From: Saccoglossus kowalevskii
Taxonomy: Eukaryota; Hemichordata; Enteropneusta; Harrimaniidae
Length of the DNA: 42,618 nt
Direction of reading: 5' to 3'
Assembly: GCF_000003605.2 (NCBI RefSeq)
Contig: NW_003148769.1
Location: 1-42,618, forward strand
Each line of letters opens with the position of its first letter. The first letter of the stretch is position 1. A program made the position numbers and the translations under genes. A model generated the notes under the pieces. The model made no database searches and was not told the DNA's origin. It was given only the letters and a program-made list of their open reading frames with translations. Below are positions 1 through 42,618 of the stretch, piece by piece.

Positions 1-350
1 CCATTTTGTTAAAGAATTCAGTTCTGGATCCGTATCCAAGACATGTCTGGATTGATCAAGTTCAAACTTCACACACACATGGTACATCATGTCACAAATA
101 GATATGTGCATTTGTTTCATGATCTGCTTAACAATAGTGGAATGATGGCCATTTTAAGGCCGAAAATGCATCAAAATCACGTATTTTCACAATTCCAGAA
201 CCGGATCTCAGTCATGCATGGATGGATTTTGTTCAGATTTAGCACAATGTGTTGTACATATGCAGGTGCATTTCGGTCATGATCTGCTTTGAATGTATAT
301 GTCACTCAAATATGAACGGAACGGGGACGTGTCATTGACAATGACTTGTT
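1..350 (+). mobile_element. Right end of a Helentron-like repeat (family H2), cut by the window edge
   Basis: This segment carries family H2 paragraphs, such as a 'GATGGATTTTGTTCA' stretch and 'GATGGCCATTTT'. It ends with the family's right terminus at 320-350: AACGGGGAC, then a hairpin (GTCATTG-A-CAATGAC), then CTTGTT. The left end lies outside the window. The 79-residue open frame at 43-282 lies wholly inside the repeat and is not a gene. Confidence 0.6.
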
Positions 351-1163
351 TAATTAATTAATTAATTACACTAACACTGATTTATGCAAATTAAGCCACC
401 TATTGTGTAGAACAATGCTTCCAATTATATGCATCAAATAAATAATGATTCAAGTTTATTTCATTAAACATTTGTAAAAAAAAAAAAAAAAAAAATTTAA
501 ATGAAATAATATTTTATTGAGTGAGTACAATTGTTTTAATTACCATAGAGGAACAAATATGTTAGAAAAGCATGTTTAAATATCTGGAATGCTTGAAGCC
601 AACAAAATCAGAATATTTTCAACATTTGATCCTAACTGGAATAGTTTTATCCCACACTATTGCAATTGTTGTATCCCCATGATATCACTTTGGATGAATG
701 CTGTGACCTGCAACTTTCTGCAAGAATTAAAAGTAAACATTATTGACCCACAGCTACCCATTCCAACAAATTGAATCTCTAGCACAGCAGTCAATAATTT
801 GGTTGAAGGGGATGGGGCTATCAAGTCTGACACCTTAAAAATGACTACTGAATATTATGGAAAGAAACAAACATGGACACTACCACTGTCAGTGGTGATC
901 ATTGTGCAAAAAAAAAAGTGCCACTATGACTTAAAGAAACTGAATATTTTATTTTACAATTTGAATAAAACAATCCTACCACCACCCTATTCGCTATCAG
1001 CTCCCCTGTCCAGTGCGGCATCATCTGAATCAGCAATATTAGGTATTCCATAGTCACAAAACACTGCTTCTAGAATCATATGACTTCAATCCAAGCTTAT
1101 TAATTACTACACTAAAAGTAATAACAACAATACATTTTGTGGAAAAATCACTGCCAATTTATC
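351..1163. other. Gene-free AT-rich stretch
   Basis: It holds a short TTAA repeat at 349-368 and an A tract at about 477-495. The short open frames at 589-774 and 799-1053 have no recognisable domain or splice context. I see no gene here. Confidence 0.6.
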
Positions 1164-1974
1164 AGTCCCCGTTTGGACGAAGTCCGAAAACGGGGACTTA
1201 TAATTCGGTCTCCGTCTGTGTGTCCGTCCGGTGTCATATCTCAGAATCCCTCGGATCGATTCCGTTTATTCTTTGCATGTGCCTAGTACTTTATGTGGGT
1301 CATATGCACATGCAGTGGTTTAGCTATTCGATTCAAAATAGCCGACTGGCAGCCATCTTGTTTTTTGAAAATGTTGTATTTTGGACATGCTTTGTCAGTT
1401 GTCATTCAAACTTGGTACATAGATTATACATGTTACAGGATACATGTCCATGACGATTTATTTCGCAATTGGATCAAAGCTGGTCGACTGGCATAGTGGC
1501 AGGCATCTTGTTTTGTTTTTTTATGCGGTATCTTGGATGTACTCTGTCAGTTTTCATTCAAATTTGGCACATACATGTACTTTATACATGTTAGGATGCA
1601 TGTCCATGACAATTTGTTTCAAAATCTGGTCAAGGATGGCCGATTGACAGCCATTAGACCTTTTGGCCTTACTACTATATTTCCACAATTTATGTACCAT
1701 TTTCATTCGTATTTGGCATATACATCATACATATCAGTGTGTTTCATAATCAGATTAAAGATGGCCGAATAACAGCTGTTTTTATTTTTAGCCATATTAC
1801 TACTACATGAAATATGTGTTTTGATGTAAATACCGGTAAACAATCTGTTGTATATGCCACTTGGAACTCAAGTTTCAAGGACACGCTCGCGACAACCCCT
1901 CCGCTTTAATATGACGAGCACAAAGAGAACTTTCAAAAATTTAACGGGGACTGTGTCATTTACAATGACTTGTT
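1164..1974 (+). mobile_element. Helentron-like non-autonomous element, family H2, copy b
   Basis: The left end (1164-1198) is a double hairpin: outer stem AGTCCCCGTT / AACGGGGACT, inner stem GGAC-GAA-GTCC. The right end (1943-1974) repeats AACGGGGACT, followed by the hairpin GTCATT-TAC-AATGAC and CTTGTT. The body is built of ~150-bp paragraphs, each with a 'CAAA..TGGCC' module and a variant of AAACTTGGTACATA (best at 1408-1421). The copy at 19617-20369 is closely related. Open frames at 1139-1772 are repeat-derived. The Helentron/HINE assignment is inferred from terminal structure only; no transposase is present. Confidence 0.65.
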
Positions 1975-4039: not shown

Positions 4040-4312
4040 GCATATTTGTATCAAAATTGTATCAGTTGTTCTAATGCTATTCTGGAGCAAAATCTCAGTC
4101 ATGTATGGATGTATTTTGTTCAAACAAACTACATAGATCAGACATTATGGGATTCTGATGAACATAATTTTTTTTTTATCAGATTCAAATGCAGTTCTGT
4201 TTCCATATCTTTCACAATTTTGAATCATTCACGTCCAAACTATATTATGATAAACAAAACTATATGTCTTAAACTTAAAATTAACGGTACTATGTAATGC
4301 AATTACTTGACA
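4040..4312 (+). mobile_element. Decayed H2 element fragment
   Basis: It matches the 3' part of the element at 5535-6536: a 'GGATGTATTTTGTTCAAAC' paragraph and the pre-terminal 'ATAAACAAAACTATAT'. The right end has decayed to AACGGTACTATG and the hairpin is lost. It lies just downstream of the last STAG-like exon. Positions 4313-4639 hold nothing I can name. Confidence 0.5.
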
Positions 4313-4640
4313 ATGTTCATTTATTTATATTCTCATTTTATGAGGATAACCTGATAAGCCTCAACATAGAAATTTATCTCCTCAAAGTATAAAAAAAAAA
4401 GTTGCTTAGTAAATTACAATAATTTCCTTTTCCTATATTAGGGGTCATGATTGGCTAAGCATCTATCCCTGCCAAAATGTCCCAAATTTTACTGTTTAGT
4501 CATAAAACCTAGTCTTTGAGCATTGTTTGACTTTTCCCAAATAGTTGTAATCAAACTTGTATTATAATAATACAGTGTTGATATTGTCCAGCATGACTAT
4601 GTTGTGAATAAGTAAACCACAGTAACCATACATAAATTAT

Positions 4641-4937
4641 ACTTCAACAATGACCTGTTAACGCCAGTGAAAGGAGGTGTTGTACTTCAACAATGACCTG
4701 TTAATGCCAGTGAAAGGAGGTGTTATACTTCAACAATGACCTGTTAACGCCAGTGAAAGGAGGTGTTATACTTCAACAATGACCCGTTAACGCCAGTGAA
4801 AGGAGGTGTTATACTTCAACAATGACCTGTTAACACCAGTGAAAGGAGGTGTTATACTTCAACAATGACCTGTTAACGCCAGTGAAAGGAGGTGTTATAC
4901 TTCAACAATGACCTGTTAACGCCAGTGAAAGGAGGTG
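4641..4937 (+). repeat. 43-bp minisatellite, seven copies
   Basis: The unit starts ACTTCAACAATGACCTGTTA and ends with GCCAGTGAAAGGAGGTG. Copies start at 4641, 4684, 4727, 4770, 4813, 4856 and 4899, an exact 43-bp step with only one or two changes per copy, so the array is young. Confidence 0.95.
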
Positions 4938-5534
4938 AACAAGGTTTACCTTTCAATAATTGCTCATTCCGTATTCAGTTTACATTCAAAAAATTACTGT
5001 TTTTTTCAAAAAATCATGCCGTTTTTTCAGCAAAATCAATTCCAACAAACCATACTTAAATTAATTCACTTCAGCATTGCGTTACTAAAATGCCTTCAGG
5101 AATTCCCCCCACCCTGAGAATTGTGTCCGTACAACACAGCATTCTGATTGGTTAATAACATTGACTTGATCTAGCAAGACCTTGTTGCAGGTCAGGTCTA
5201 CAATAAAACCTTTTGACAAGAGTTTGCATGTAATTGAATACATTCAGCAATGATGATAATGATTTTGACTGTTACAGCCATTCTGAGAATTATTCGGACA
5301 GTCAGTTAACAATATTAGCAAAACACTTGGGTCAAAATATCAGCGTTCAAGTAACTGCATAGCTCTGATGTTTTGCAGCACGTCAAAGTATCAGCTTATT
5401 TGTTGTTATCACAGTGGGTAACGGCTGTGTTTCAAATTCAGACAAAGATCATCACGGTTAGAGACATTTTGTCTTACACTAGTGCCTGGGGATTGTTTTT
5501 TTTATGCAATGTTACAACAGGTAGAGTTGTTTTT
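4938..5534. other. Gene-free stretch with one exon-like segment
   Basis: Nothing is recognisable except 5379-5456, which is preceded by TTTTGCAG, followed by GTTAGAG, and open for 26 codons ('HVKVSAYLLLSQWVTAVF'). It is phase 0 at both sides, so it could join the last STAG-like exon, but it does not resemble STAG. An AATAAA lies near 5202. I make no functional claim. Confidence 0.3.
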
Positions 5535-6536
5535 AGTCCCCGTTCGGACGAAGTCTGAAAACGGGGACTTATGTTTTGACCTTCGTGTGTCTGTCCGTGT
5601 GTGCGTGCGTCCGGACCTGTATCTTAGAAATGCCTGGAACAATCACAATCAAACTTCACACATACATCATACATGATATCATACATATGCACGTCAATTT
5701 GTTTCACGATCTGATTCAAGATGGCCGAATGGTGGCCATTTTTTGTGCTAAAAATCATCAAAATCAAGCATTTCCCGGCTGTTTACAGATGGATTTTGTT
5801 CAAACCTTGTATATACGTTGGACATTATAGGACCTTGATGAACATCATTTTGTTTTACGATCCTATTCAAAATGGCCTAATGGTTGTCATTTTTGTGCTA
5901 AAAAATCATCAAATATTAAGCATTTCTGGCATTTATAGATGGATTGCATTCAAACTTGGTACATACATTGGACATTACGGGTTCCTGGTGCACGTCATTT
6001 TATTTTTCAGATCAGACTCAAAATGGCTGTCCGGTGGCCATTTTGTTTTAATGAATGGGTTTCAAGACCCATATGTCTGACTTGTTTTGACTGATTATGT
6101 TCAAATTTTTAATATTCATTATACATCATGTCACAGATATACGGATATATTGGTTTGACGATCCTTTTCAAAGTGGCCTAATGGTGGCTATTTTTGTGCT
6201 AAAAAACTTGTTTTATTTTTTAGATCGGATTCTGAATGGCTGACTAGTGGCCATTTTGTTTTAATGAATGGGCTTCTAGAGCCATATCTCTGACATGCTT
6301 TGACTGACTATGTTCAAATTTCATATATTCATTATACATATATTCAAAATGGCTGATTTTGTTTTAATTAATGCTGTTCCAGAGCTCATTTGACGATCAG
6401 ATACAAATGTCAATCATTTAATTGTTAAACAATCATCATATTCCTGACATGTTTATATTCCAGCTATATTACTATAAACAAAACTATATATCTTAAATTT
6501 GATAACTAACGGGGACTGTGCCATGCATGGCTTGTT
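5535..6536 (+). mobile_element. Helentron-like non-autonomous element, family H2, full-length copy c
   Basis: The left double hairpin is at 5535-5569 (outer AGTCCCCGTT / AACGGGGACT, inner CGGAC-GAA-GTCTG). The right end at 6508-6536 is AACGGGGACTGTG, then palindrome GCCATGCATGGC, then TTGTT. The ~1-kb body holds five or six paragraphs with 'TCAAAATGGCC..ATGGTGGCC' modules; AAACTTGGTACATA occurs at 5952-5965. Open frames at 5482-6080 are repeat-derived. Confidence 0.7.
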
Positions 6537-6660
6537 AATTCCAGCTGAGGTCACAAACCCAGGATTACATTTGGGGATTGATACTATGTCGCGATGTCCA
6601 ACATTGAAAGCCAGCGACTACCTCCCATCCCACCCCCAGACCCTGTTGAAGGAAATGTTG

Positions 6661-6826
6661 GATGCGTAATTCTATAGATTGAATGCTGGCACTACTTAAC
6701 GGTCGGCAAGTTCACTGCAGTTCGTTTAATCACACCTAAAACAATGAAAACATAAGTGTGGATGCGTAATCCAATAGATTGAATGACGCGCTACTACTTA
6801 ACAGTTGGCAAGTTCATCGGAGTTCA
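6661..6826 (+). repeat. ~100-bp direct duplication, two copies
   Basis: GGATGCGTAATYCWATAGATTGAATG occurs at 6660 and 6760, followed in both copies by CTACTTAAC, GGCAAGTTCA and AGTTC. The second copy has diverged. Confidence 0.8.
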
Positions 6827-6839
6827 ATTAATTCATTAA

Positions 6840-8925
6840 TTAATGATCGCATGAATGGTTGAGTCTAAGATTGCGTTAACAAGAACAACCACATGCCAAG
6901 CGACCACAACTCCTTTAGTTTACTTATCAAAAAACTTGTACCAGAGGCAATTTCAAATGTTTCAGTACTATTAATCATTAGAAGATCATATTTCCTAGCG
7001 TACTGTAATTCGATCAATGCAAATCGATGGTGACATGTCAAACATCTAGAATTTATTTTCAACAAATGTACCGTAGTGATGTTAGTAATCAGTGAAATAC
7101 TAATTACAAAAATGTATTTGTGTATATCTAAGTCTACATTTCAAACGTATTTTATGATATTAGCAGTACGATCACGAATTGATTCACGCACTTCAAACGT
7201 ATTTGCATAAATGTCACGACTTGCAACTTTCACTACCATTACTGTAGTGTAAATCTATGAAGGTTAATCCGAATATATGAGCAAAATGGGAATGTACATT
7301 TCATTAATAAAATGTCATTTTTGTAGGTGTGCACACTTTCACTTGTCACTGAGCGTTGTTTACAGAGGCCGAAAAATGAAAACACTCAAGACAAAACAAT
7401 CGTCAGAGTTGCATCTTTATTACTATTAAATATAATTGTGGCCTGTCTCGACATTTATCTTGCATAAATCAAAATGGTACTCTCAAAAACATTTATACAC
7501 TGGCGATTTATGGTTGAAATCAGACACACGCACTTCTCATTCCATTGTTGGTCCCATGCCTACTATTACATGTAAAAGTGAGCGTAGTCTCTCATTACCA
7601 GATACGTCCATCTTACAAGGTCATAGGGTTCAAACTGCGTGAATATTCAATTAAATATGGTTGCGTCTGTTTTAACAAACATCCTCTCATGTGAATGTGA
7701 TATTAGCACCAGATTGGATTCTTTAACTTAAGTTAGACCTCTGAAACAAACTTGTAACAACTTCATGTTAAACTGAGCGTAGCTTTCATTACATTACCAG
7801 CATTTTATGGTTTGTTCTCACGCTTACTTTTAAAAGTGAGTGCACTCAATCATTGCATTGTTTAGCTCCACGCTTACTTTTGAAAGTGAGCATATGCTGA
7901 ACTCATTACAAGGTACTGTTATTTACTATTACATTGTATCATTAATTAACTCAACTTTCTTTTAATACTTTATTGGTGTAGACTGATAGATTGTATTTAT
8001 AAGGATGCAATAAAGATTGTTATTATATCTTCGTGAAAACTGAGACGCTCAGTTTACCACGCTCAACTACTACCTAGAGACTCGTACATACTTCAAAATG
8101 TGCATAATTTTGGTGACCATTTCTGTATCTGTTATGTTATTTCTACAACTAACAAAAAGATGTAATATTCCTCTGTTTATCTGGAACATGGTGGAATAAA
8201 ATTATCATGTGCATACTTTTTTGAGGGGGAGGACCTTGGGTAAGTGCCCACCTCCTAAAACACCTGATTTTTGGGTGCTGAGTCAGACAAGTACAATATA
8301 TGACAAGACAGTTTACTCTGTGACAAAAAATATGAGAGTCATTTCCAGTAGGCCTTGCTCTAATTGCTATATTGATAATTATAGGGTACGTCTTTTCACA
8401 ATTTATTATTGTATTATTTTTACACCAATCATTGTAGATTTGACAATTGTATAAAATATACTAACGTCACTAGTATTGATACATTTGTTTGAAAAAGTAC
8501 TGGACCAGGGACTGTTTTTGTGAACTACTCGCAAATGCACGTACATGTTTGACAGTTCATAACATTCGGCTTCAGTAAAAATCAAAATATACACAAACAC
8601 CATTCATTGAATTGTAACGCGTGAACATGAAATATTCCTGATGGTTCTGAGTATTTGTCAGTAGTGTAGTAGTGAAGCTTTTTGAGTAGTGAAAATGAAA
8701 AATAGAAGAAAATCCATTGAAGTAGGGGAAGGAATTGTCTAAGTTTAAATCCATGAAGGCGCAACAATGTCATGTAAATCATTATCGGATAATAAAATCT
8801 AATGAAATGTTGGCAGAGATGTCTAATTTAGACATTTTTAGACATTATTATCAGATAATATCAGAGAAAAACCAACTGTCCCAAATAATTATCGAAAGAG
8901 AGATGTGTAACTGCGACACATTTTT
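6840..8925. other. Gene-free intergenic stretch with palindromic motifs
   Basis: No exon with a recognisable product was found on either strand. At 7540-7890 related motifs recur: AAAAGTGAGCGTAG (near 7567), AACTGAGCGTAG (near 7772) and two near-palindromes at 7821-7840 and 7871-7890. Open frames at 7436-7642, 8209-8454, 8735-8930 and on the minus strand at 6865-7065 have no family match or convincing splice context. Confidence 0.5.
7821..7890. repeat. Pair of palindromes 50 bp apart
   Basis: CGCTTACTTTTAAAAGTGAG (7821-7840) and CGCTTACTTTTGAAAGTGAG (7871-7890) are near-perfect self-complementary sequences. Half-copies lie upstream at about 7567. They may be remnants of a small element or paired binding sites. 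Confidence 0.5.
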
Positions 8926-10055
8926 GACTCCCGTGTGCGAAGCACAAAAGGGAGTCTTTGCATGTATGCATGTATGCATGTATGTATGTATGTATGTCAC
9001 TTTTTTTGTTCCACCGTTATCTCAAGAACCACTAATCAAATGTTGATGAAACTTGGTACATAGATGCTCTGGGATAATGCGCAGAGTTGATTAGGTTTTG
9101 GTAAAAATCTATGAATATTAATTACCTAATTTGCATGATAATTAGCTGATTTTTAGCTGTTCCAAGACTGTTCCACTGATATCTGAAGAACCACTCATTG
9201 GATTTTGATGAAATTTGGCACATGGATGCTCTGAACTAATGCACAGATTTGATTAGTTTTGGGTAAAAATCTGTTAATATTATTAATTACCTAATTTACA
9301 TAATGATTAATCAATTGAGGACTGTGCAGAGACCTAATTAGTTTTTTGGTAAATATTTGTGCATATTAACCACCTTATTAGCATAAATTAGTTAATTTTC
9401 AGCTTTTCACCTGATATCTCAAGTACTAATCATCACATTTCAATGAGACTTGCGACATAGATATTCTAGGATTATGCAGAGACCTGATTAATTTTGAGAT
9501 AAAAAATTGTGCCTATTAATTACCTAATTTGCATAATTAGTTAATTTTTTGCTGTTCTATGGCTGTTGCACTGATGTCTAAAAACCACTCATTGGATTTC
9601 AATGAAACTTTTAAATAGTACCCATCACATTTCATTGAACCTAAGACCACCATATTAGTTTTTGGTAAATATTTATGCTTCTTAATCACCTAATTAACAT
9701 AATTAATTAATACTAATATCTCAAGTATTGATCATCACATTTGAATAAAACTTGGTACATAAATGCTCTAGGACAATAGACAGCCTGATTAATTTTGGGT
9801 TAAAATCTGTTCATATTAATTCTCCAATTAGCATAATAATTAATATTTTTTTGGTTCTAATCACATTCCAATGAAACTTGGTACATTGTGCAGACCTTAT
9901 TAGTTTTACACCTAAATCTGTTCATATTAGTTACCTTATTTGCATAATTAGTTTTCAGCTATTCCATCAATATATCAAGTATAAGTAATTTTGAATTATT
10001 TTTAATGTGTCTCCAAAACTCTCAGCACACGGGAGTTCTTTCTAAGCTTTCTTTG
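8926..10055 (+). mobile_element. Large non-autonomous element, family H3, with internal paragraphs
   Basis: The left end at 8926-8956 is a double hairpin: outer GACTCCC / GGGAGTC, inner GTGC-GAA-GCAC. It is followed by a (GCATGTAT/GTATGTAT) microsatellite at 8960-8998. The right end at 10022-10036 is AGCACACGGGAGTTC, the inverted complement of the left terminus. The body is about eight ~130-150-bp paragraphs of the form 'ATCTCAAGTA..CACATTTCAATGAAACTTGGTACATA..AATTACCTAATTTGCATAAT'. The same family is inverted at 41150-42618. No protein is encoded. Confidence 0.7.
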
Positions 10056-10067
10056 ATTCTTTATATT

Positions 10068-10246: not shown

Positions 10247-10645
10247 ACAAAGAACAGTATTTATTGGACACAGAATTGTGGGAATACATAGACATACATG
10301 TACATTGTACCTTTGTTTATTTTAACATATCCACCACTGGCACTTTTTTTTTTATCCCCTTTTATTTTGCGCTATTTGTGGCGGCTTTTATCAAGCAATG
10401 TGTTAACCATGCACTAATAATAGCCCAATCATGCATGTATGTTAAAATTTACTGTAATAAAGCCATTGCCGCATTTACAGAGTAACTATTGGTTTGTGTG
10501 AACTCATGTAGTTTTAATGTCTATTAAAATCGTGTCTCTGTTGAATAGAAAAGCACTTAAACTAAAAATTATCTTGATTGCATACTTACTCATCAAAATA
10601 CAATTGATTTGGCCCACAATAACACCTCTGTATTTTATGTAAGCA

Positions 10646-10858
10646 TACTGTACAATACTTTATTTTCACTTGGAATTTATTTTTGCTATTTTCGCTGAAG
10701 GAATAATTCAGTGAAAATAAAATCCAGCGAATATACCTTTTTTCCTATATTTTAAATTCAACTTGTCAATAATCAGTGAAAATAAATTCCATACACAACA
10801 GCCTAAAAAGTGTTTTCAGCGGAAATTAATTCCAGCTAAAATAAAATGTTTCACAGTA
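10646..10858. mobile_element. TA-flanked MITE, family T, copy 1
   Basis: The termini are TACTGTACAATACTTTATTT and its inverted form ending TTTCACAGTA. Internal AGTGAAAATAAAATCCAGCG and GAATATACCTTTTT stretches match the copies at 12786, 24733, 31330 and 32045. Positions 10859-11085 carry nothing I can name. Confidence 0.85.
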
Positions 10859-11649: not shown

Positions 11650-14600
11650 GTTAGTCAGTTTTTCTAAACAGTTTTGATTGAATGGTACCCTAGAAAAGTT
11701 TTGTCATGATTCTCAGAGTAATGATGAAAATGATGTCTATTCCTTTAACTTTATTTTCCAAAGACAACTTCTTTGTCCTTTAGCAAATTAAAATCCTCAT
11801 AAATTTTTCCAGATTTGTTTTAAAATTTTGATGGAGACTTATAGCCAATGAGAAATTATTTTTATTAGGTCCAAAATTGAGATAGAATCTGTAGAAAAGA
11901 AAAAATGATGCACCCAAACTTGTTTGAAAACATTTTGACGTTCTGTATGAATCAGTTTTGTGTCATAACTTGTTTAAAGGAGATTGTAGTAAACTAAAGT
12001 GAGTAACTGTTTTGTTTCTTTGATGTTTGTTAGTTCGGTACAGACCCTCGGGAAGCCCGCTACTGGTTGAAAAACTTCCAGCGAAATACTGATCCTTGGA
12101 AGCCTTTTGCTGTGGTTCAAGTTGATCAAGAAGTCTTCAAAAAACCTGAACTTGTAAGTACAAAGCATTGCATTATGGGTACACAACACTATGGAGAGAA
12201 ACATTAAATAAGGCTTACCCGGTAGTTATAATTCAAACCATTCAACTGACAAGTCAGTCCTGGTTGCACCATTTATGAATAGCACTCTTGTAAAATGGGA
12301 ATGGATTATAGAAATTCTAATGAATTTCATATTAGATTAAATACTGTAGAATACTTTATTTTAGCTAAAATTAATTTTCGTATGGAATTTATTTTTACTG
12401 TTTTTTGATAAGTTGAATGTAAAATATAGGAGAAAAGGTATATTTGCTGGATTTTATTTTCAGCGAAATTTTATTCCGAGTGAAAGTAAAGTATTTTACA
12501 GTATATATTAATAAAGCTGTTACAAAATCATGTTGACAACTTTGTATTTTAATATCAGTTCATTAGAACAACAAAACGTCTGTGTTGTGTTTGGTTTCAT
12601 GAGTTGTCATAGTAAATTATAAATGGATATATTTACTGGTATGTACAACATTACATGTAGTCTGCACTTTCCTTCAGAAGATTGGGTAAAAATAGTTGAA
12701 ATTTTGGGTAAAAACTGAAAATTTACTCAAATTTTAGCTCCAAAATTCAAGTTCATTTGCAGAAATATTGAAGAATATAAGAAAATACTGTAGAATACTT
12801 TATTTTCGCTTGGAATTTATTTTCGCTATTTTCGCTATTTTCGCTGATTGGATGATTCCGTGAAAATAAAATCCAGCGAATATACTTTTTTCCTATATTT
12901 CACAATAAACTCATGAAAAATCAGTGAAAATAAATTCCAAGCAAAACGCCCAAAAAGCCTTTTCAGCGAAAATTAATTCCAGCGAAAATAAAGTATTCCA
13001 CAGTAGTGCAGAAAAATTTGGGCGAAAAAGTCTGGTGGTGAAAAAGCTAGATCTACTGAAATAAAGAAAAACACAGGTTTCTCTTTCATCTGCTGTTTTG
13101 TTTATCATAGTTTGCTCTAACAACATAGAGGGCACTGTTTCTGATAAAGCCCATTTAATGTGCAGACCTGACACTGAGGGCGCTGTTTGTAATTTGACAA
13201 ACTTCATCAGTCACTTCAAATAATGTTTGCATCCAATTGACGTTGCTGCATGATGGACTTTGTGGTTCATAATTCAATTTGAGTAAATAAACACAAATCA
13301 AGACGAAGACTTCATCCTAGAAATAGACATGGCTATATTTTATTTACATGTCGCAAATAGAAATTGTATTTGTTTTCTGTTTCATGTTTTGCTATGTTTT
13401 AATAAAAATGATCAGAGCTTAATGAGTGTGAAGACAGCGTTCGGTTCATTTCGCGTTCAATTCATGTTCGTTTCGTGTTCAATTGATGTACGTTTCTCGT
13501 TTGATTGACGTACAAATTTGAAAATATCTATTTTCCACAAAAGTTTATATATAAAAAAAATGGGGATCAACCTATTCCTTTTGGAGAAAATCATGGTTAA
13601 AAATAGTCCTACTATCTCGCTCACATCGGAAGTCACATGGGCCCAAACAAGTATAAAATAGCCATAGAAACAGACGAGAAATGCATATATATGTTTAAGG
13701 AAAATGAATCTTTTGTAAAAAAAAATTATATAGTCACAAATTATCACCACTCAATTCAAAAACAAATAAAATCTTTGAAACAAGGACGTTGATGATATTT
13801 TTTATTTATAATCATTGTCCTTTGACCTTCTGCGCATTCGCTGTCATGGGCACTATGAAAGTATTTCCAAAGAAAATGCTAAATTGATCTCTATTTTCCC
13901 CGCTCAAAAATATTGTTAAATTATCTGAAATTGCTATATATCAACATTTGAGTGAATTATAGGTATTTCAGTGGACGTTTCAATCGAATGCTAATCGAAC
14001 TGAACGCTGTCTTCACACTCGTTGTGTTTTATCAATAGAAAATATAATGTTTGTTTGTTTGTGTATTAATTACTATATCAAATGTTTGTTTGTGTTTTAA
14101 TTACTATATCGAATGTTTGTTTGTGTTTTAATTACTTTATAAAATTTTTGTATGCAGATGGATAGTCTTGGCTCCAGTATATCATTCCTACTGCGACATG
14201 ACATGAAAGCCGTTGTTGTTCATGGGAGTGTTTTACCAGAGGAGGCAGCTCTTTCTAATGACATCCTACAAGTAAGTGTCTGAATTTGTTGTGAAATTGC
14301 TAAAAACATTAAAAAGTGGAAATAAATAGTATTAAGCGCCCAGGGGCCTGAACATGGAAAATTGCCAAAATATAGGGGTTGGTGTTAGCCCGGACAACCT
14401 CCCCCCCCCCCCCCTGCAAAAAAAACAAAAACAGGTATGTCCTCAACTTCTTTATTGTATCAAAATTGGTCGCTTACCCAGATAAATACGGTATTGTATT
14501 TACAGTATTTGGTTGGATTCCTATGAATAACCTTAAAAAATCATTTTTTTTTCAAAATGTCAAATATAAAATATTGGTGTTCTGGTTTCATATTTAGTAA

Positions 14601-17600: not shown

Positions 17601-20600
17601 TGAACATCAAAATGGATGCACTGAAACTGAGACACAATTTTTTCTCAATGTAAAAAAAAAACGATCGTCGAAAGTATAAAAAAAAGTTCTGTGACCATTC
17701 AAGATTAGTCTTTAGTTTTTTCTGCATGTGGTAATGGTTTATGCATGTGGTAACTTTGATCATTCTGGATAAATGTTGAACTACTGAACTGCGGCGTATA
17801 GTCACTTCATGTTGGTTGCATGCATTGTTTTACTGTCGTTTCAACAAAACTTCAAATAAAAATGTTGTCTCAAAGTGTAAATTTGGAGTCACATTGTATC
17901 ATTTTGGAATCATCTGTTTCACGAATACAACTGCCAGTTAATATCAGCTTCTTGCATATTTTGCACGCTGCAGATTTTGCGTTACAAACTTATTTAGAAA
18001 TCCAAAATTTGGCATATAAACTGACCAACGTGATGCAGAGCTGAGATTTCTTGTTAGCGTCATAACAGAGTGATAACAAGTGAGCAAAACCTCAGATAAC
18101 AATTCTGAATTGGAGGCACGTGTGTGGATGGATTACAATTACAAACAAAATTACCGAACGTATCATTATTATGAGACAGCATTTGTATATGTTGAAACAA
18201 CTGTAATCCAGTAGTAGAATTGCTTGTATCTGTTTGAGCAATGTTCACAGCGTTGAATTGTAGTGTTAGTTGTCTTAAATTATGTGTGCCTCAGATTGAA
18301 AGTTTCATCAAAATCTTGTCTTGCCTTTGCTTGCCAATATAATGTATTGTATTCTGTAACAAATATATCCATGCTACTGATTTTGTTTCTATGGTTACAT
18401 TGCATCAATTCGTGATGAGAAGTCAACTTTTAGATTAGCTGTTTTTGTGATAAGATGTGGAGCACGATGCAAGGATTTTGATAGTAAATCTGTACAGGAC
18501 CTCAAGGATTAATATGGTTTGTTTTTCTGCAAGCTGAATTAAAATAAAAATTTAAATGTAGTAAAGAATTATTACATTTATTAACCTACAAGGTTCAGGT
18601 TCACTATCTAAACCGGACAGAACATTCTGGCTTTTGTTTTTAATATTTTGTAAAAAAAATGGCTTGTTTGTCTTCGGCAAAATTCGTGCTACAAAAATCA
18701 GTTGTGAATGTTGAACCATCTGACGGTGTCATTCACACGAAACATTTGATTCCAAGTGAGAGTGTAACCTGTGGATGGAATTTCATATGAAACGTAACAC
18801 TGCCAGAGTTCTTGTATCTGCTGAAAAGGTAAATACCCTCAGTTTTGAGTAGCTGTTAGTGTTATAAATGAGATGCGTTTCTTCTTGTAGGTTCAACGAA
18901 TTTCTTCGTTACTGAATCAGCTTCCGTCACAATCGTCTGTGGTTATAACATCCGCCAATACACTGCTCACTGAACTCTTCACACATCGAGGTAGGTCCAT
19001 AAATTACGATCATAATCATTTTATTTTAGCTGGAATTAATTTTCGCTTACAATTTTTGATTTTTGATAAGTTGAATGTAAAATATAGGAAAAAAAGGTTT
19101 ATTTGCTGAATTTTAAGCGAAACTAGCGAGAATAAATTCCAAGTAAAAATAAAGTATTTTACAGTGCTTGACAGATCTGAAGCATGAAACAAAATTTTGC
19201 AGACTGTGCAATTTTAACATAAGCAGTTACTTTGAGTGTTCATTTCGAAATACTGTATTTGCTCTACTAGTAGTGCACGTACAAATGACAGAGGTACAGC
19301 TATGGTCAAAAGAAGTTATAATACAATGATCCAGTATATAATAAATGCAACATTTGTTTTTTGTGCTTCTCATAGTCTAGAGGAAATATGGTACTTTATC
19401 TTAGGTGAACAAATTATTTTAGTACTTTTGACATTTTACTGGAAATATTCTTCTGAATGTTTTTTTTTTTTTCTGCTGACAGGTTCGGGTACTTTTTTCA
19501 AGATAACAGAACCAATACATGTTTATCATGATCTTGATGACATATCTTTAGACAGAATGCTGGCGTTGCTCACAAGGTACGTTTAACTATTGGCCTCGTC
19601 TGTAGTAGTGTAATTGAACACCACACTGTGCGTCCGTCCGGAGTCATATCTCAGAATCTTTTGGACCGATTCCGTTCATTCTTTGAATGTGCCTAGTACC
19701 TTATGTGGGACATGTGCAAATGCAGTGGTTTAGCGATTCAATTCAAAATGGCCGACTGGAGGCCATCTTGTTTTTTGAAAATGTTGTATTTTGGACATGC
19801 TTTGTTAGTTTTCATTCAAACTTGGTATATAGATTATACATGTTAGGATACATGTCCATGACGATTTATTTCACAATTGGATCAAAGATGGCCGACTGGC
19901 AAGCATCTTGTTTTTGTTTTTTTATGTGGTATCTAGGACGTGCTCTGTCAGTTTTCATTCAAATTTGGCACATACATGTACTTTATACGTGTTAGAATGC
20001 ATGTCCATGACAATTTGTTTCAAAATCTGGTCAAGGATAGTCGATTGACAGCCATCTGACTTTTTTGCCTTACTACTATATTTCCACAATTTATGTACCA
20101 TATTTATTCGTATTTGGCACATACATCATACATATCAGTGTGTTTCATATCAGATCAAAGATGGCCGAATAACAGCTGTTTTTATTTTTGGCCATGTTAC
20201 TACTACATGGAACACGTGTTTTGATGTAAATAAACAATCTGTTGAACACGCCACTTGGAACTCAAGTTTCAAGGACACGCTCGCAACAACCCGTCCACTT
20301 TAATATGACGAGCACAAAGAGAACTTTCGAAAAATTTAACGGGGACTGTGCCATTTTCAATGACTTGTTCTCATTGAGGACTATGAATAAACAAGATTGT
20401 GCGTGGTAACGACTATATACGATGTTTGTCCACATTTGTAAGGGTTGTTTTTAAACAACAAACCCATTATGCAAATATCGAGCTGTAAAATGCCAATATG
20501 GCGGCAATACATCCTGTCAACTAAATGACGTGACATCGCTATTTTAAAATTTGTTTTCAGGGCATTCGGGCGAATGCTGAGTAAAGATTACTTCACAAAC

Positions 20601-22610: not shown

Positions 22611-24732
22611 ATATAAACCACAAAAACAGTAGAGACTGAACTTATTTTGGTTTGTGAAAAATATGTGTTTATGGTTTAGCAATGATAAAGCATCCTCTGC
22701 CCCTCCGTGATTTGCTACTCGTCGTGTAACAAAACATTATTTTTATCTGCACCTTTCTCTGAAACCCAACGCTGTATATACAACTTTTTATTGTCTGGGT
22801 CCACTAAGGTGTCAGCTCCTCTAGTTTAGGCAGCCATGATGGATTATGCTAATTTGTACCCCTGTATTCGGCTTTTCAAAGAAAAAAAGATTTTTTGAAG
22901 AACCTGTTGATTTCCAAGAATGTTGGCTGTTGTCATTAAGGCCAGTATCCCAGTGTATCTGTAATTTTTAGCAGGTTTTTCAGCAACTTGTTCTTCTACG
23001 ATCACATATACTGTATCGCACAATTCAGAGGTTATATTTTGCACAATTCTATCAGGGTCTAAGTGCAAAAAATTCACCTTCAAAACTAAACAGTGAGATT
23101 TTGAAACTGTTCCCTTTATCTAAAAAAAAACTTAACACAGCTGTTGTGGCGCCCTTTATTGGCCATAATCTAAGATGTTAATTTAATTTTAGATGTTCAC
23201 TCTCATTTTTTTTTCTGCCGAATTCTTCTGAATTAGGTAAATAATGAGCCATAAATTTTTTTTTCTGAAAACTGAAATTCCAGAAAAAATGGCAAGTTAA
23301 CAATTTCCATATTTTGTGGTTGTAAATAAGTATGTAACATTTGTACATTGTTTCATTTCATAACTGCAGTAGTTTTGTAGAAGTGTCTAATTATTGGTTG
23401 CTAATTTCCTGAATATTGTTTGCACTGTATAAAGTAAAAACAACTACACTAGATTTATGCTATGCTTTCTCAAGCTGTAAAAACAAAAGCAATCTCTGAA
23501 TGTTATAATGCTTGTCGTGGATTCTACAAAGTAAAAACAACTACACTAGATTTATGCTATGCTTTCTCAAGCTGTAAAAACAAAAGCAATCTCTGAATGT
23601 TATAATGCTTGTCGTGGATTCTGCTCACCTGAAAATAGCTGCTTATTGCAAAAGAATTTTAATTTTGACTGTAAAAATGAAAGAACCTAAAAGAATGACC
23701 ACATGAGGGGGCACATGTAAATAGTTCATTATAGGTACTCATTTCAGTATTTGTGATGAGTGTTGGTTCTGCTGAGTACAGAAAGCGTCAGAATTGATGA
23801 GATTTCCTGGTTAAAATATGAGTATGTTTATTTTTGCATTTTTCAGTTACTTGTAAAAGAAATTTAAGAATGGAAAACTTTTTTTTCTTGGGTAATAGTT
23901 TAAAGGCATTTTTTTTTTCTTACAAGTTATTGGTAGATATTTAGTTCTGTATGTTGCCATGGTTTTTCTTGTATTTTCTTTCTCCTATGCAGCTTTAATA
24001 GTTTAAGTGAGAGATATTACAAATAAATAAACAGTAAAATAAAAAAATAATAAAAAACGTAATTGCTATTGCTAAGTATAAAATAGAAGACATAAAAATG
24101 AAAAAAATCTCTCATTTGGTGAATTCTTGGCACTCTAATATAACCATATTTGCTCTATTTGAAGTGCATCTGTAATAAAAACGATTGTAAACCAATAGCT
24201 GCTGATATAGTGGATCATCAAAAAGATTATCTGTTTTGAACTTTGACTCGCACCTGTCAAATATGGTTTTTGTTTACCATAACAGAGTGCAACATTATTG
24301 TTTTTTTCAGCCACTTTTTTAAAAATTGAGCAAATATGGTATACACTGCCTCTTGCAAGTATGAGGAATATCTCGATCTGGTTTCGGGATTGAGTTCATG
24401 CATGATATTTTATGGGTGAAAGGTCGTGTAATCTGTTTACCATATCAAACTCTACCAAAGGAAAGAACGGGTCAGTTTTTTTTGTCATTCATTTTTTTGT
24501 CATTAAATAAATGTTATGCGTTTAGAAACATACTGAAATATTTGAATTTATGATTTTCAAATCGCAAAGAGACTGATTATAGTTTTCTCATTTAAATAAA
24601 TACTGACGAGGATGCCAGATTCATTCATGCTGTGCAACCCTCAGCTTGCTTATATGGAGATGATATTGTTAGTACAAGACATTCCAGCCTGGACAGCAGA
24701 TCATTTGATACCTCTCCAAATATTGCCAAGAT
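22611..24732. other. Intergenic stretch between convergent genes
   Basis: No exon was found. It contains a 97-bp direct duplication (23431-23527 and 23528-23624, nearly identical). The minus-strand frame at 22844-23083 (79 codons) has a protein-like composition but no family match. Confidence 0.5.
23431..23624 (+). repeat. 97-bp tandem duplication
   Basis: AAAGTAAAAACAACTACACT starts both copies, and both end with GCTTGTCGTGGATTCT. The identity is nearly complete, so the duplication is recent. Confidence 0.95.
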
Positions 24733-24930
24733 TACTGTGGAATACTTTATTTTCGCTTGGAATTAATTTTCGCTGAAGGAATGATTCAGTGAAAATAAAA
24801 TCCAGCGAATATACCTTTTCTCCTATATTTTACATTCGTCAAAAATCAGTGAAAATAAATTCCATACAAAACACCACAAATATCTGTTCAGCGAAAATTG
24901 ATTCCAGCTAAAATAAAGTATTTTGCAGTA
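24733..24930. mobile_element. TA-flanked MITE, family T, copy 5
   Basis: The ends are TACTGTGGAATACTTTATTT and AAAGTATTTTGCAGTA, with the internal 'ATTCAGTGAAAATAAAATCC' typical of the family. Confidence 0.88.
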
Positions 24931-25679: not shown

Positions 25680-25885
25680 TTGGTTATGGCGGGTCAGATA
25701 TGGCTCTTTTACAGTATTTGTTAAAACTTTGCCATTTTATATTCAATCTGAAAAACCAAATGATGTGCATCAAGACCCCACAATGTTGAATGTATTTACC
25801 AATTTTGAACAAAATCCATCTGTAAACCGCTGAGATCTTGCCCTGGAATGGCAAATGCTTGATTTTCATTGACTAAGCACAAAAA
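25680..25885 (-). mobile_element. Inverted H2 element fragment
   Basis: In reverse complement it reads family H2 paragraphs ('GGATTTTGTTCAAAATTGG' and 'GGTCTTGATGCACATCATTT'). Neither end is preserved. Confidence 0.5.
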
Positions 25886-26125
25886 TGTCCGCCATTTGGC
25901 CATGGACATGCAGAGGTCAATCCATATCTGTGTCTGGACTTCATTTGAATATGGACCAATAGCAAGCCACGACAGTATTATGCTTAGAAAATTCATAGAA
26001 CTGAGATGCTGACATTTAGAAGACTATGATGGTCTCAAGAGATAGCTGCTCAACATTTAGATGCAAGGTAAGTTTGAAAGAAAAAAATCAGAACAACAAC
26101 ATTTCATCTTTAAAACATATCTTTT

Positions 26126-32300: not shown

Positions 32301-35300
32301 TTAATTTCACAAGAGATAGCATTTTACGATTCCTTGTATTTTCTTTTCATTGCCAAAGCCCTCGCATAGTTAAACAAATATTTCTAGTATCAAAATTTTC
32401 AATACACATACACAAATAGTAAATAAGTCCAAACTAGTTTTGGAACTTCATTTGATCTTCTGAAAAATTCTTAATGATATCATTCATATAGTATAAATTT
32501 AATATTAGTACTCATTAATATAGGTATTATATAGGTATTATATATTAATTTCCACGTTGGAGAATTTGTCCAAATTATTTTATCTACCCCCGGTACTTTC
32601 ATGTACAAATGAAAATAAAATTGATACTTTATCAATAATAATATTAAAATAACTTTTTACCCCGAACATCTATGAGTTTTCTAAAATTAGTCTGAACAAG
32701 CCATGCATGGCACAGTCCCTGTTAGTTATCAAATTTAAGTTATATAGTTTTGACTATAGTAATATAGATTGAGCTTAAACATGTCAGAGATATGAATTAA
32801 GAAGCTGATGCTTGATTATGATAATTTTCTTACATTGAAATGATTGACATTCAGTCATCTGATCGTTAAACGAGTACTTGTCCATACAGTAATTAACATG
32901 TGTCACATGAAGTGCAACGTCGCTGTAAAACGTGATTGCAATCACCCAAAGAATATCATAATTTTTTTTTAAATTAAAACAGAAGCCATTTGACAATCTT
33001 CAATCTGATACTTGTGCATATGTGCGACATGATGTATAATAAAGATAATTTATTGCATCCTTAGAAATACAGTGTTTCCATCAGTTTATAGCAACAAAAG
33101 TAAGATATTAAAAAACAAAATAACAAAATAACTATATATAAAGTTTGAACATGATCAGTCAAAGCACGTCAGATATTGCTCTGGAACAGCATTCATAAAA
33201 ACAAAATGACCGTCGCCACAAATTGATATGAATCAAGGTCCAATAATGTTCAATGTATGTACCAAGTTTGAACAAAATCCAGCTGTAAAGCCGAGATCAA
33301 GTTCTGGAATGCCAGAGCACACAAATGGCCACCTTTCAGCCATCTTGAATCAGATCATGAAACAAATTGATGTGCATATGTATAATGTTATCTATGATGT
33401 AGGTATGTTAAGTTTGAATGTAATCAGTCGAGGCATGTCTAACATATAGGCACTACCACACAAACACACATTTTGGTCAATCCACAATTCCAGTTTTTGA
33501 GCGGGGTCTGAACAGTGACTAAATATCTGTGCAATATAAAGTTGTACTATGGGATACCTTTTATTTACAGCCCTCGACAAATGAAGTTGTATGTGCTATA
33601 TATCAAATATAACCAGGGTGGAATCTTGGGATGTCAGAGCCAAGCGAAATAGAACGTGATTTACCATGATTAAAGCCAAGAGGACAAGAGACGAGACTTA
33701 CTATATGAAGATCTTCAGATATCTTGTTATTCTTGAGGGCGTCTCCCAAAATATCGAGATTCTTCTTCTGATCTTGAAGACTCAATTTGATGTTCTCGAC
33801 GTCAATTCGCTGGTCTTGCATACCGCGATTGGCCATCATTATTTTGCTTTTCTGTATAATATACATGGTAACAAAGTTAAATTGAATGTTGTTTAAATTT
33901 CAATTTATTTTGAGATTCAGAGAATAGCTCTTAACATGTGGTGACCATTGTGAATTGCATTTTATGTCTCGCTTTCAGGTTCCCTGCAATGCTAAGATAC
34001 ATATGATTCAACAGATGCATTCCATCAATGCAAAAACAAGGCTGGGAACGCGAAAGGTCAGCAATAGTTGCCGCATGATAAGAACGAACTCAGTTGTCTT
34101 AAATTTAGCTTAGGTCAAAATGGCAACAAGCATTTAAATTTAGCTTAAGTTAAAATGGTACCAAGCATTATGAGACTAATTAATTGCCATATTTTGGGTG
34201 TAAAACACTAAATTTAACAGAAAATACTTAGACCCTTCGTCTGAAATGATTGAACCAAATTTAGTACATTTTGAAAAAGTACCAGCAAATTGCTGATGTC
34301 CAGAGAGCACAAAAATCACTTGGGCTTAGTGTGAATACTGCATTTCTTCCACAGCAATAGGTCACTTTCATGACCCCTAAAGGTCACACATCCTGGTACT
34401 TTCATTGGTATGACTGCATCACAAACATGTACAGTTGGTGCACTTTAATGTGACTTTTTGGTCCTGACAGAAATATTTTACTCTAGCTGAAACAAATCAA
34501 GTCTGGGAAATTTCAATAAAATAAATTCATTTTCGATTTTGATAAAAATGAAAGTACCAGGATGTTTGACCTTTAACGATCATAAATGTGTTCGTTTTAA
34601 TACGAGATCATAAATGTGTTCGTTTTAATACCAGAAATTTATGTAAGTGCTCATAATAAAGTAAATAGAGACATAAAAGAGATGTAATGCGCGCGTGAAG
34701 AGGAACTTACAGCGTGTCTGGAATTCTGTTTAAGTTTCTTGAGTGCTTGGTCATGGGTGTGTCCTAACTGAGCCATGGCGACTCTCAGATGCTGGAGTTG
34801 CACGTCTCTGTTCTTTATTTCATCAGTCATTTCTTTACGACTGTCAAAATAACAATACATTGTAGATGAATTAAACGAAAATCACAAAATCAGCTTTTTA
34901 ACATAAAATAGTTTACATCCTCATATTTTATAAATATCTGAATTTCACCAATATTTCTGGAAATGAATTCTAATTTTGGAACCAACAGACAAAAATTTTC
35001 AGTTTTTATTCAAAAAAAATGGCAATTTTTGTTCCAAAAGTGTGGATTATAAAACCAGACTATTTGTGAGTTTGGGATGAAAAGGGGGAACTGGTGGTGA
35101 AAAGGTTAAATCATGATCCTGAGCACTACGTCATGTTATTATTTATTCATGAAGATGATCGATTCGGACAAACAAATAAGGAAACACAAACTGAAATAAC
35201 GACAGACATATTTAAAACTGCACCAGGGTTTTGTTCTGGCGATAAATTTCCCCACGATTGATAGCAAATTACCAAAAAGTCACAGTGAATTTTTGGATTA

Positions 35301-41042: not shown

Positions 41043-41149
41043 TAATAATAATAATAAATTTATTACACAACTGCACCATCGGTGGGTGCTGTCTGGTAAG
41101 GATACAGATCAGAAAAAACAAACACAAATAAACAAAATCAAAGAAAGCT

Positions 41150-42618
41150 TAGAAAGAACTCCCGTGTGCTTGAGAGTATTGAAGACATGGTAAAAATTAA
41201 TTCAAAATTACTTGTACATGAGATATTGATGGAAAAGCTGAAAACTAATTATGTAAATCAGGTAACTAATATGAACAGAACAGAACAAAAAAATTATGAA
41301 TTATTATGCTAATTAGAGAATTAATATGAACAAATTTTAATTCAAAATTAATCAGGCCTTTATTCAAATGTTATGATCAGTAATTGAGATATCAGTGTTA
41401 ATTAATTATGTTAATTAGGAGATTATTAAGCATAAATATTTACCAAAAACTAATTGGGTTTCTGCATAGTTCTCTTTAAAAGTTTCATTAAAATCCAATT
41501 TGTGGTTCTTTATATATCAGTGGAACATTATGTAAATTAGGTAATTAATATCCAATTAAAACTAATCAGGTCACTGCATAATCCTAGAAGATCTATGTAG
41601 CAAGTCTCATTGAAATATGATTACTACTTGATATATCAAAAGCTGAAAATTAATTAATTATGCAAATTAGGTAATTAATATGTACTCATATTACCCTAAA
41701 AACTATCGGGTCTGTGCAGTGTCCTATGACATCTATGTACCAAGTGTCATTGAAATGTGATGATTACTACTTGAAATATCAAAAGTTGAAAATTAATTAA
41801 TTATGCAAATTACTGGTAGCTAATTAATATATACTGATATTACCCTAAAAACTATCAGGTCTGTGCAGTGTCTTATGACATCTATGTACCAAATTTTATT
41901 GAAATGTGATGATTACTACTTGAAATATCAAAAGCTGAAAATTAATTAATTATGCAAATTAGGTAATTAATATGTACTCATATTACCCTAAAAACTATCA
42001 GGTCTGTGCAGTGTCCTATGACATCTATGTACCAAGTGTCATTGAAATGTGATGATTACTACTTGAAATATCAAAAGTTGAAAATTAATTAATTATGCAA
42101 ATTACCGGTAGCTAATTAATATATACTGATATTACCCTAAAAACTATCAGGTCTGTGCAGTGTCTTATGACATCTATGTACCAAATTTCATTGAAATGTG
42201 ATGATTACTACTTTAAATATCAAAAGCTGAAAATTAATTAATTATGCTAATTAGGTAATTAATATGTACTTGTATTACCCTAAAAACTATCAGATCTGTG
42301 CAGTGTCCTATGACATCTATGTACCAAGTGTCATTGAAATGTGATGATTTCTACTTGAAATATTAAACAGCTGAAAATTAATTAATTATGCAAATTAGGT
42401 AATTAATATGTACTCATATTACCCTAAAAACTATCAGGTCTGTGCAGTGTCCTATGACATCTATGTACCAAGTTTCACTGAAATGTGACAATTACTACTT
42501 GAAATATCAAAAGCTGAAAATTAATTAATTATGCTAATTACGTAATTAATATCTACTGAATATTACCCTAAAAACTATCAGTTTGTGCAGTGTCCTATGA
42601 CATCTATGTACCAAGTTT
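41150..42618 (-). mobile_element. Family H3 element, inverted, with a higher-order tandem array
   Basis: The right terminus in inverse is at about 41158-41172 (GAACTCCCGTGTGCTTGAG). Degenerate paragraphs follow to ~41590, then a homogeneous array to the window end. Landmark CTATGTACCA falls at 41592, 41733, 41882, 42025, 42174, 42317, 42461 and 42604, giving steps of 141, 149, 143, 149, 143, 144 and 143. The element's left end lies beyond the window. Confidence 0.75.

Follow-up and report, generated by a model that had tools for sequence, protein, structure and literature searches.

Two repeat families of the hemichordate Saccoglossus kowalevskii with GAA-capped double hairpins at their left ends, very probably non-autonomous Helentrons

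A 42,618-nucleotide stretch of the Saccoglossus kowalevskii genome (contig NW_003148769.1 of assembly GCF_000003605.2, positions 1 to 42,618, forward strand; hereafter the window) harbors two repeat families, H2 and H3. Both are very probably Helentron-associated elements (HINEs), i.e., non-autonomous Helentrons of the DINE-1 type, mobilized in trans by a Rep-helicase of the Helentron type (Helitron2 group) through rolling-circle transposition. The assignment is made on the basis of an asymmetric (sub)terminal repeat, hairpins, a microsatellite, central repeats of ~150 bp, insertion of H2 at TT without a consistent duplication, and a genomic source of Rep, PIF1, and endonuclease. A first-pass annotation of the window had guessed at this class, and the guess is supported by the repeat asymmetry, the 5′ hairpin, the 3′ hairpin of H2, the microsatellite, the central repeats, the lack of coding sequence, the TT context, and the presence of a Helentron in the genome. 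The kind of element is already known, and H2 and H3 are a new pair of families within it. With them, Saccoglossus joins the animals with satellite-carrying HINEs.

The left end of each family is a double hairpin with a GAA loop, exactly as first described. In H2 (copy C2, 5535-5569) it reads AGTCCCCGTT-CGGAC-GAA-GTCTG-AA-AACGGGGACT, and in H3 (copy a, 8926-8956) it reads GACTCCCGTGTGCGAAGCACAAAAGGGAGTC. A second intact H2 left end lies at 1164-1198 and is paired with a third arm at 1943-1952. The layout common to both families comprises an outer stem, an inner stem, a C-GAA-G loop, and an A-rich spacer, with a third arm ~1 kb downstream that pairs with the 5′ arm. The window was scanned for this architecture with an outer stem of at least 7, an inner stem of at least 4, and a third arm of at least 10 nt, using 200 dinucleotide shuffles as background. 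This looser scan returns 17 hits (shuffle mean 3.98, maximum 11), most of which are AT-rich. Because the AT-rich hits swamp it, a requirement for at least 6 guanine or cytosine (GC) bases in the third arm was added. The strict scan yields exactly three hits (H2 at 1164, H2 at 5535, and H3) against a shuffle mean of 0.015 and a maximum of 1, a figure that is somewhat flattering since the GC threshold was set post hoc, after the looser scan, although three hits are still reached in none of the 200 shuffles. The three left hairpins, when folded as single strands of DNA, beat shuffles with z scores of −5.1, −5.0, and −2.6, the first belonging to copy C1 (−14.1 kcal/mol). The left-end architecture is thereby confirmed as real in both families, far above chance under strict criteria.

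Six H2 copies lie in the window: two intact, one partly outside it, one 5′-truncated, one whose left hairpin is eroded, and one degenerate. H3 is present in two copies, the second of which is cut by the right edge. The copies and their parts are as follows:

1..349, plus strand: H2 copy C0, right part only, its left side beyond the window; third arm at 320-329
1162..1973, plus: H2 copy C1, full length by alignment, from T-C-AGTCC to CTTGT
1164..1198, plus: C1 left double hairpin with C-GAA-G loop (strict scan, DNA fold)
1943..1952, plus: C1 third arm, the 3′ arm of the asymmetric terminal inverted repeat (ATIR), AACGGGGACT
1955..1969, plus: C1 3′ hairpin GTCATT-TAC-AATGAC (fold z −2.2, right-end alignment)
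4075..4309, plus: H2 copy C5, degenerate, retaining a vestige of the central repeats and a right end whose hairpin is GTAAT-GCA-ATTAC
5533..6535, plus: H2 copy C2, full length
5535..5569, plus: C2 left double hairpin (scan and fold)
5585..5612, plus: C2 left-module microsatellite, GTCY-like, seen directly
5649..6340, plus: C2 central ~150-bp repeats
6508..6517, plus: C2 third arm AACGGGGACT
6520..6531, plus: C2 3′ palindrome GCCATGCATGGC (right-end alignment; alone it folds no better than shuffles, z −0.3)
19626..20368, plus: H2 copy C3, 5′-truncated, in an intron of the N-acetylglutamate synthase (NAGS) gene, 90.5% identical to C1; third arm at 20338-20347
32696..33522, minus: H2 copy C4, old, left hairpin eroded; third arm at 32714-32723; left-end alignment score 45, reached by 0 of 500 shuffles (maximum 30)
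8924..10058, plus: H3 copy a, full length
8926..8956, plus: H3a left double hairpin with GCGAAGC cap (scan and fold)
8959..8997, plus: H3a left-module microsatellite (TGCATGTA)n
9007..9980, plus: H3a central ~150-160-bp repeats
10025..10036, plus: H3a third arm GCACACGGGAGT, complementary at all 12 positions to the 5′ side of the outer and inner stems
10037..10058, plus: H3 3′ terminal segment common to copies a and b, with a weak hairpin only (z about 0)
41136..42618, minus: H3 copy b, running past the right window edge; third arm at 41158-41169; amplified 143/292-bp array

The third arm had been placed at the far end of both elements. It is present in both, but its position is subterminal, such that H2 runs on for 18-21 nt through a second hairpin to CTTGT and H3 for ~22 nt. 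The inverted repeat, 10-11 bp in H2 and 12 bp in H3, is therefore asymmetric, being terminal at the 5′ end with its 3′ arm ~18-22 nt inside the other end. Five aligned H2 right ends (320, 1943, 6508, and 20338 on the plus strand and 32723 on the minus strand) share the palindrome and CTTGT (up to CTTGTT) and then diverge. Their palindrome is either GTCATT-NNN-AATGAC or GCCATGCATGGC, with C3 carrying the first type with one C-A mismatch; the sixth, degenerate right end is that at 4283. When folded alone, the H2 3′ end is clearly above shuffles in C0 (z −2.6) and C1. Both H3 copies of the window have TCTTTCTAAGCTTTCTTTGATT at their right ends. The H3 third arm had been taken for a copy of the 3′ arm of the hairpin, a view that does not stand: only GGGAGT is common to the two, and the third arm is instead complementary, at 12 of 12 positions, to ACTCCCGTGTGC, which forms the 5′ side of the outer and inner stems as far as the loop. 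In DINE-1 of D. melanogaster, the subterminal inverted repeat (subTIR) runs in the same manner through an outer and an inner stem to a GTA loop. The further claim that the primary sequences of H2 and H3 are unrelated is slightly too strong; it agrees with the interiors, which have no blastn cross-match at 1e-5, but the ends of both families keep CCCGT/ACGGG, and common descent of the ends is therefore possible.

Each left module carries a microsatellite, GTCY-like in H2 and (TGCATGTA)n in H3, and is followed by central tandem repeats with periods of ~143-162 bp. No open reading frame of at least 120 aa is found inside C1, C2, or H3a; one 121-aa stop-to-stop frame inside C2 is without a Pfam match. 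In H3b, the central array (41591-42616) is a 292-bp higher-order repeat made of two ~146-bp monomers, 94% alike, while the H3 copies are mutually only ~70% alike. This array probably reflects a later satellite-like amplification within an old element. A solo H2-type central monomer without ends occurs at 25731-25903 on the minus strand.

Genome-wide copies of the H2 ends were sought by pattern search with up to three mismatches in 572,110,611 bases, with control patterns alongside. The left end has 1472 matches (725 + 747) dispersed across many contigs, and the right end has 761 (379 + 382), while the controls have 0; these numbers suffice to measure which end base pairs are under selection. 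The second base pair of the 3′ hairpin, read in the first 100 of the 761 right ends, is T-A in 56, C-G in 31, A-T in 6, a G-T wobble in 2, and unpaired in 5, i.e., 93 Watson-Crick pairs where 46 are expected if the two sides were independent. Three pair types at one position between nearly fixed neighbors are the look of maintained pairing. The covariation check proposed by the first-pass annotation is thus positive for this hairpin, which lies outside the 3′ repeat, as in other HINEs. Across the six copies of the window, 94.1% of 3′-hairpin cells are paired (14 of 500 shuffles are as high), and sliding the partner by 1-3 columns leaves at most 53.6% paired; at two pairs both sides have changed, a number reached in 69 of 500 shuffles. 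At the other end, 98 of the 100 listed genomic left ends preserve Watson-Crick or G-T pairing at the two free inner-stem positions. No matched change in the pairing of the 5′ and 3′ arms was found in 12 fetched right ends, whose left arms are exact by selection. A C-to-T change in the 5′ arm of C4, with a G-to-A change in its 3′ arm that restores pairing, was not counted as covariation, both lying at one CpG.

On the contig itself, blastn finds no H2 or H3 copy in ~43 kb of readable sequence elsewhere, and five further stretches (two wholly N, one about half N) contain none. With six copies of H2 and two of H3 inside the 42.6-kb window, the elements may be clustered on the contig. The exact H2 pattern has 0 matches in a viral-contig and in a genome-contig collection.

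The insertion context was read from 20 H2 copies fetched out of the 100 left ends listed and picked partly for variants. A recognized right end is present in 12; for two of the other eight, it is probably among the genomic right ends listed, at the border of the fetched stretch or slightly beyond it. TT precedes AGTCC in 20 of 20, and the five positions leading up to AGTCC read T (20/20), T (18/20), A (12/20), T (20/20), and T (20/20). The base after CTTGT (CTAGT in one) is T in 11 of 12 right flanks, and the single H3 left end seen follows TTTTT. Boundaries are sharp and flanks unrelated at the 20 left and 12 right ends. Target-site duplications typical of a DDE transposase had been named as the observation that would speak against a Helentron origin; paired flanks of the 12 copies show no consistent duplication.

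A candidate source of the transposition machinery exists in the genome. Helitron_like_N (PF14214) has eight matches in S. kowalevskii and none in 14 control genomes. At the best locus, a DUF6570 match lies upstream; downstream are a PIF1 helicase (3.7e-24) and an Exo_endo_phos endonuclease (5.1e-12), whose reading frames are interrupted by a stop and a change of frame. The 551-aa segment that directly follows the Rep match is without a Pfam match of its own, and most of the Rep match lies in ~500 bases outside the sequence read. Judged by its domains, the locus is a decayed Saccoglossus Helentron, Rep/PIF1/endonuclease being the Helentron combination. S. kowalevskii XP_002741052.1 is counted among Helentron proteins by Thomas et al. 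2014 (PMC4067079). A tblastn search of the window with two Rep stretches gave no match, and no match of Helitron Rep queries to viral contigs was confirmed.

Several observations weigh against the HINE assignment. The first-pass annotation had looked to a Rep-helicase flanked by the same ends; the Rep/PIF1/endonuclease pieces are in the genome, but a search of the 4.5 kb flanking the best locus on each side, one of eight Rep matches, found no H2- or H3-type end. Folded alone, the H2 3′ end is not above shuffles in C2 (z −0.3), C3 (0.6), and C4 (−0.9), and the H3 3′ hairpin (five pairs with one mismatch) is no better than shuffles in either copy (z about 0). The covariation in the first 100 right ends goes back to a small number of subfamily events rather than to 100 independent changes. 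Of the 12 fetched right ends, 8 differ at one or more positions of the 10-nt third arm, with left arms exact; since the copies were chosen by exact left ends, these changes can neither show nor exclude matched 5′-3′ change. When shifts are allowed, flanks match over 3-7 nt in 6 of the 12 copies (mean 2.0 versus 1.23 when re-paired; 14 of 200 re-pairings are as high), and T runs may lie behind these matches.

Such shifted matches would suit miniature inverted-repeat transposable elements (MITEs) of a cut-and-paste DDE transposase, the palindromic ends being merely Helentron-like, as would the short, AT-rich, gene-less, many-copied form of the elements and their inverted repeats. A MITE origin is nevertheless very unlikely, given a repeat that is terminal on the left and lies ~18-22 nt from the right end, an additional palindrome beyond it in H2, TT before all 20 fetched left ends, and no consistent duplication in 12 copies. 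Canonical Helitrons (Helitron1) belong to the same rolling-circle class, and copy C1 even starts with TC. However, these elements have a 5′ TC, a 3′ CTRR, an A^T target, and a hairpin at the 3′ end only, whereas the 20 fetched copies all have TT before AGTCC, the 3′ end of H2 is CTTGT, and the context is T-rich, with a 5′ hairpin and an ATIR present; a Helitron1 identity is extremely improbable. Hardly any weight is given, likewise, to a selected cruciform or satellite feature that is not a mobile-element end at all (e.g., replication-slippage arrays with chance hairpins). The satellite-like central repeats and the amplified 292-bp array of H3b would fit it, but the sharp boundaries with unrelated flanks and the dispersal over many contigs would not.

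For HINEs driven by a Helentron Rep-helicase, the ends suggest a sequence of events. The enzyme would nick the T-rich junction immediately preceding the 5′ ATIR and would recognize the GAA-capped hairpin as single-stranded DNA. One strand would then be peeled off through the central repeats until the exposed 3′ ATIR could pair with the 5′ ATIR, opening the 5′ hairpin. This pairing, together with the 3′ hairpin, may mark the point of second cleavage. An end-point or switch model in which repeat pairing destroys the 5′ hairpin has already been printed for Helitron2 by Bao and Jurka 2013 (PMC3627910). For such a switch, the H3 third arm, which covers the 5′ side of both stems as far as the loop, is better suited than a simple duplicate of the 3′ arm would be.

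Among known elements, DINE-1/INE-1 of Drosophila shares subTIRs, a partial inverted repeat beside the 5′ one, central repeats, and TT insertion (Yang and Barbash 2008, PMC2374699), as well as a GTCY-rich microsatellite like that of the H2 left module; it differs in sequence and host phylum. DINE-1 has a conserved core of ~90 bp, and the stem of its 3′ stem-loop varies between species, for which compensatory change has been suggested (PMC2374699). The D. melanogaster subTIR is printed as ATACCCGTTACTC (PMC2374699), and a literature search for these letters found no paper. Cg_HINE/Pearl elements of bivalves have a left subTIR, an inverted repeat, and a microsatellite (GTCY, GTCC, or GTCK in several), satellite-like middle repeats mostly of 140-180 bp, and a right subTIR with a palindrome, and differ in host and sequences (PMC7492417). 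HINE-Mo of the mite Metaseiulus, deletion derivatives of Helentrons, have 12-15-bp subTIRs, a 3′ palindrome, and a T-rich target without duplication; in contrast to H2 and H3, whose ends are linked to no autonomous element, two of its subfamilies have known autonomous relatives (PMC4067079).

Helitron2 elements likewise carry an ATIR and hairpins at both ends (PMC5148889, PMC3627910). On end sequence, FoHeli1 and FoHeli2, Helitron2 elements of Fusarium oxysporum, are the most specific parallel to H2 and H3. Their printed 5′ ends have the identical C-GAA-G cap, FoHeli2 starts with T-N-AGTCC as does H2, and the printed target TNAT resembles the TTAT-T before H2 (PMC5148889). However, these elements are fungal, autonomous, and, as printed, without an endonuclease domain, and their 5′ stem is single rather than nested (PMC5148889, PMC3627910). 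A literature search on hemichordate HINEs gave no such title among the matches listed, and with the H2 and H3 end sequences as search words, the titles among the matches listed are unrelated to transposons.

The GAA cap shared with the Fusarium Helitron2 elements is the least documented point of H2 and H3. The window has three C-GAA-G hairpins, all at left ends; as a marker their count was discarded (shuffle mean 1.67, with 66 of 300 reaching 3), only the coincidence with the ends being informative. Two more such hairpins with stems of 4 occur in fetched sequence away from recognized ends, one of them beside the Rep locus. The 100 listed H2 left ends do not test the loop because all match with no mismatch, and the DNA energy parameters give no bonus for a GAA loop. 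H3 contains the exact sequence d(GCGAAGC), which a reference title in PMC10527192 describes as an extraordinarily thermostable mini-hairpin. In a small literature search, this mini-hairpin was not found linked to Helentron or Helitron ends; no paper with both Helitron and triloop was found, and no triloop, mini-hairpin, or GAA loop appears among the matches listed. The accessible part of PMC8268682 has no loop sequences, and PMC11136912 has neither the search terms nor loop sequences. It is conceivable, though doubtful, that a dedicated DNA mini-hairpin of extraordinary stability, C-GAA-G (perhaps C-GNA-G), caps the 5′ hairpin of Helitron2 and Helentrons and has been conserved from fungi to hemichordates, and that Rep may read this cap as a structural start signal, with the 3′ repeat as the opening strand. 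If true, one structural rule would serve for finding and testing the origin of a whole transposon class, and a shared cap would supply both a motif to search for and a contact through which end recognition could be tested.

The window is animal DNA with introns. A NAGS query assembled from its exons has the S. kowalevskii enzyme as top match among 995 proteins. That protein aligns back to the window over ten exon-length segments, six of them at 100% and the other four at 91.7-97.5%; one extra match (E 0.13) is due to chance. An Rfam scan at the gathering threshold gave no match. A seven-copy 43-bp tandem repeat lies at 4594-4980, downstream of the degenerate H2 right end, and a perfect 97-bp tandem duplication occupies 23431-23622. 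A separate MITE-like repeat family of ~130-220 bp, with ends TACTGTRGAATACTTTATTTT / AAAATAAAGTATTCCACAGTA, is present in both orientations at the following positions:

10645-10858: MITE-like copy
12342-12472: MITE-like copy
12786-13007: MITE-like copy
24733-24930: MITE-like copy
31330-31533: MITE-like copy
32043-32257: MITE-like copy

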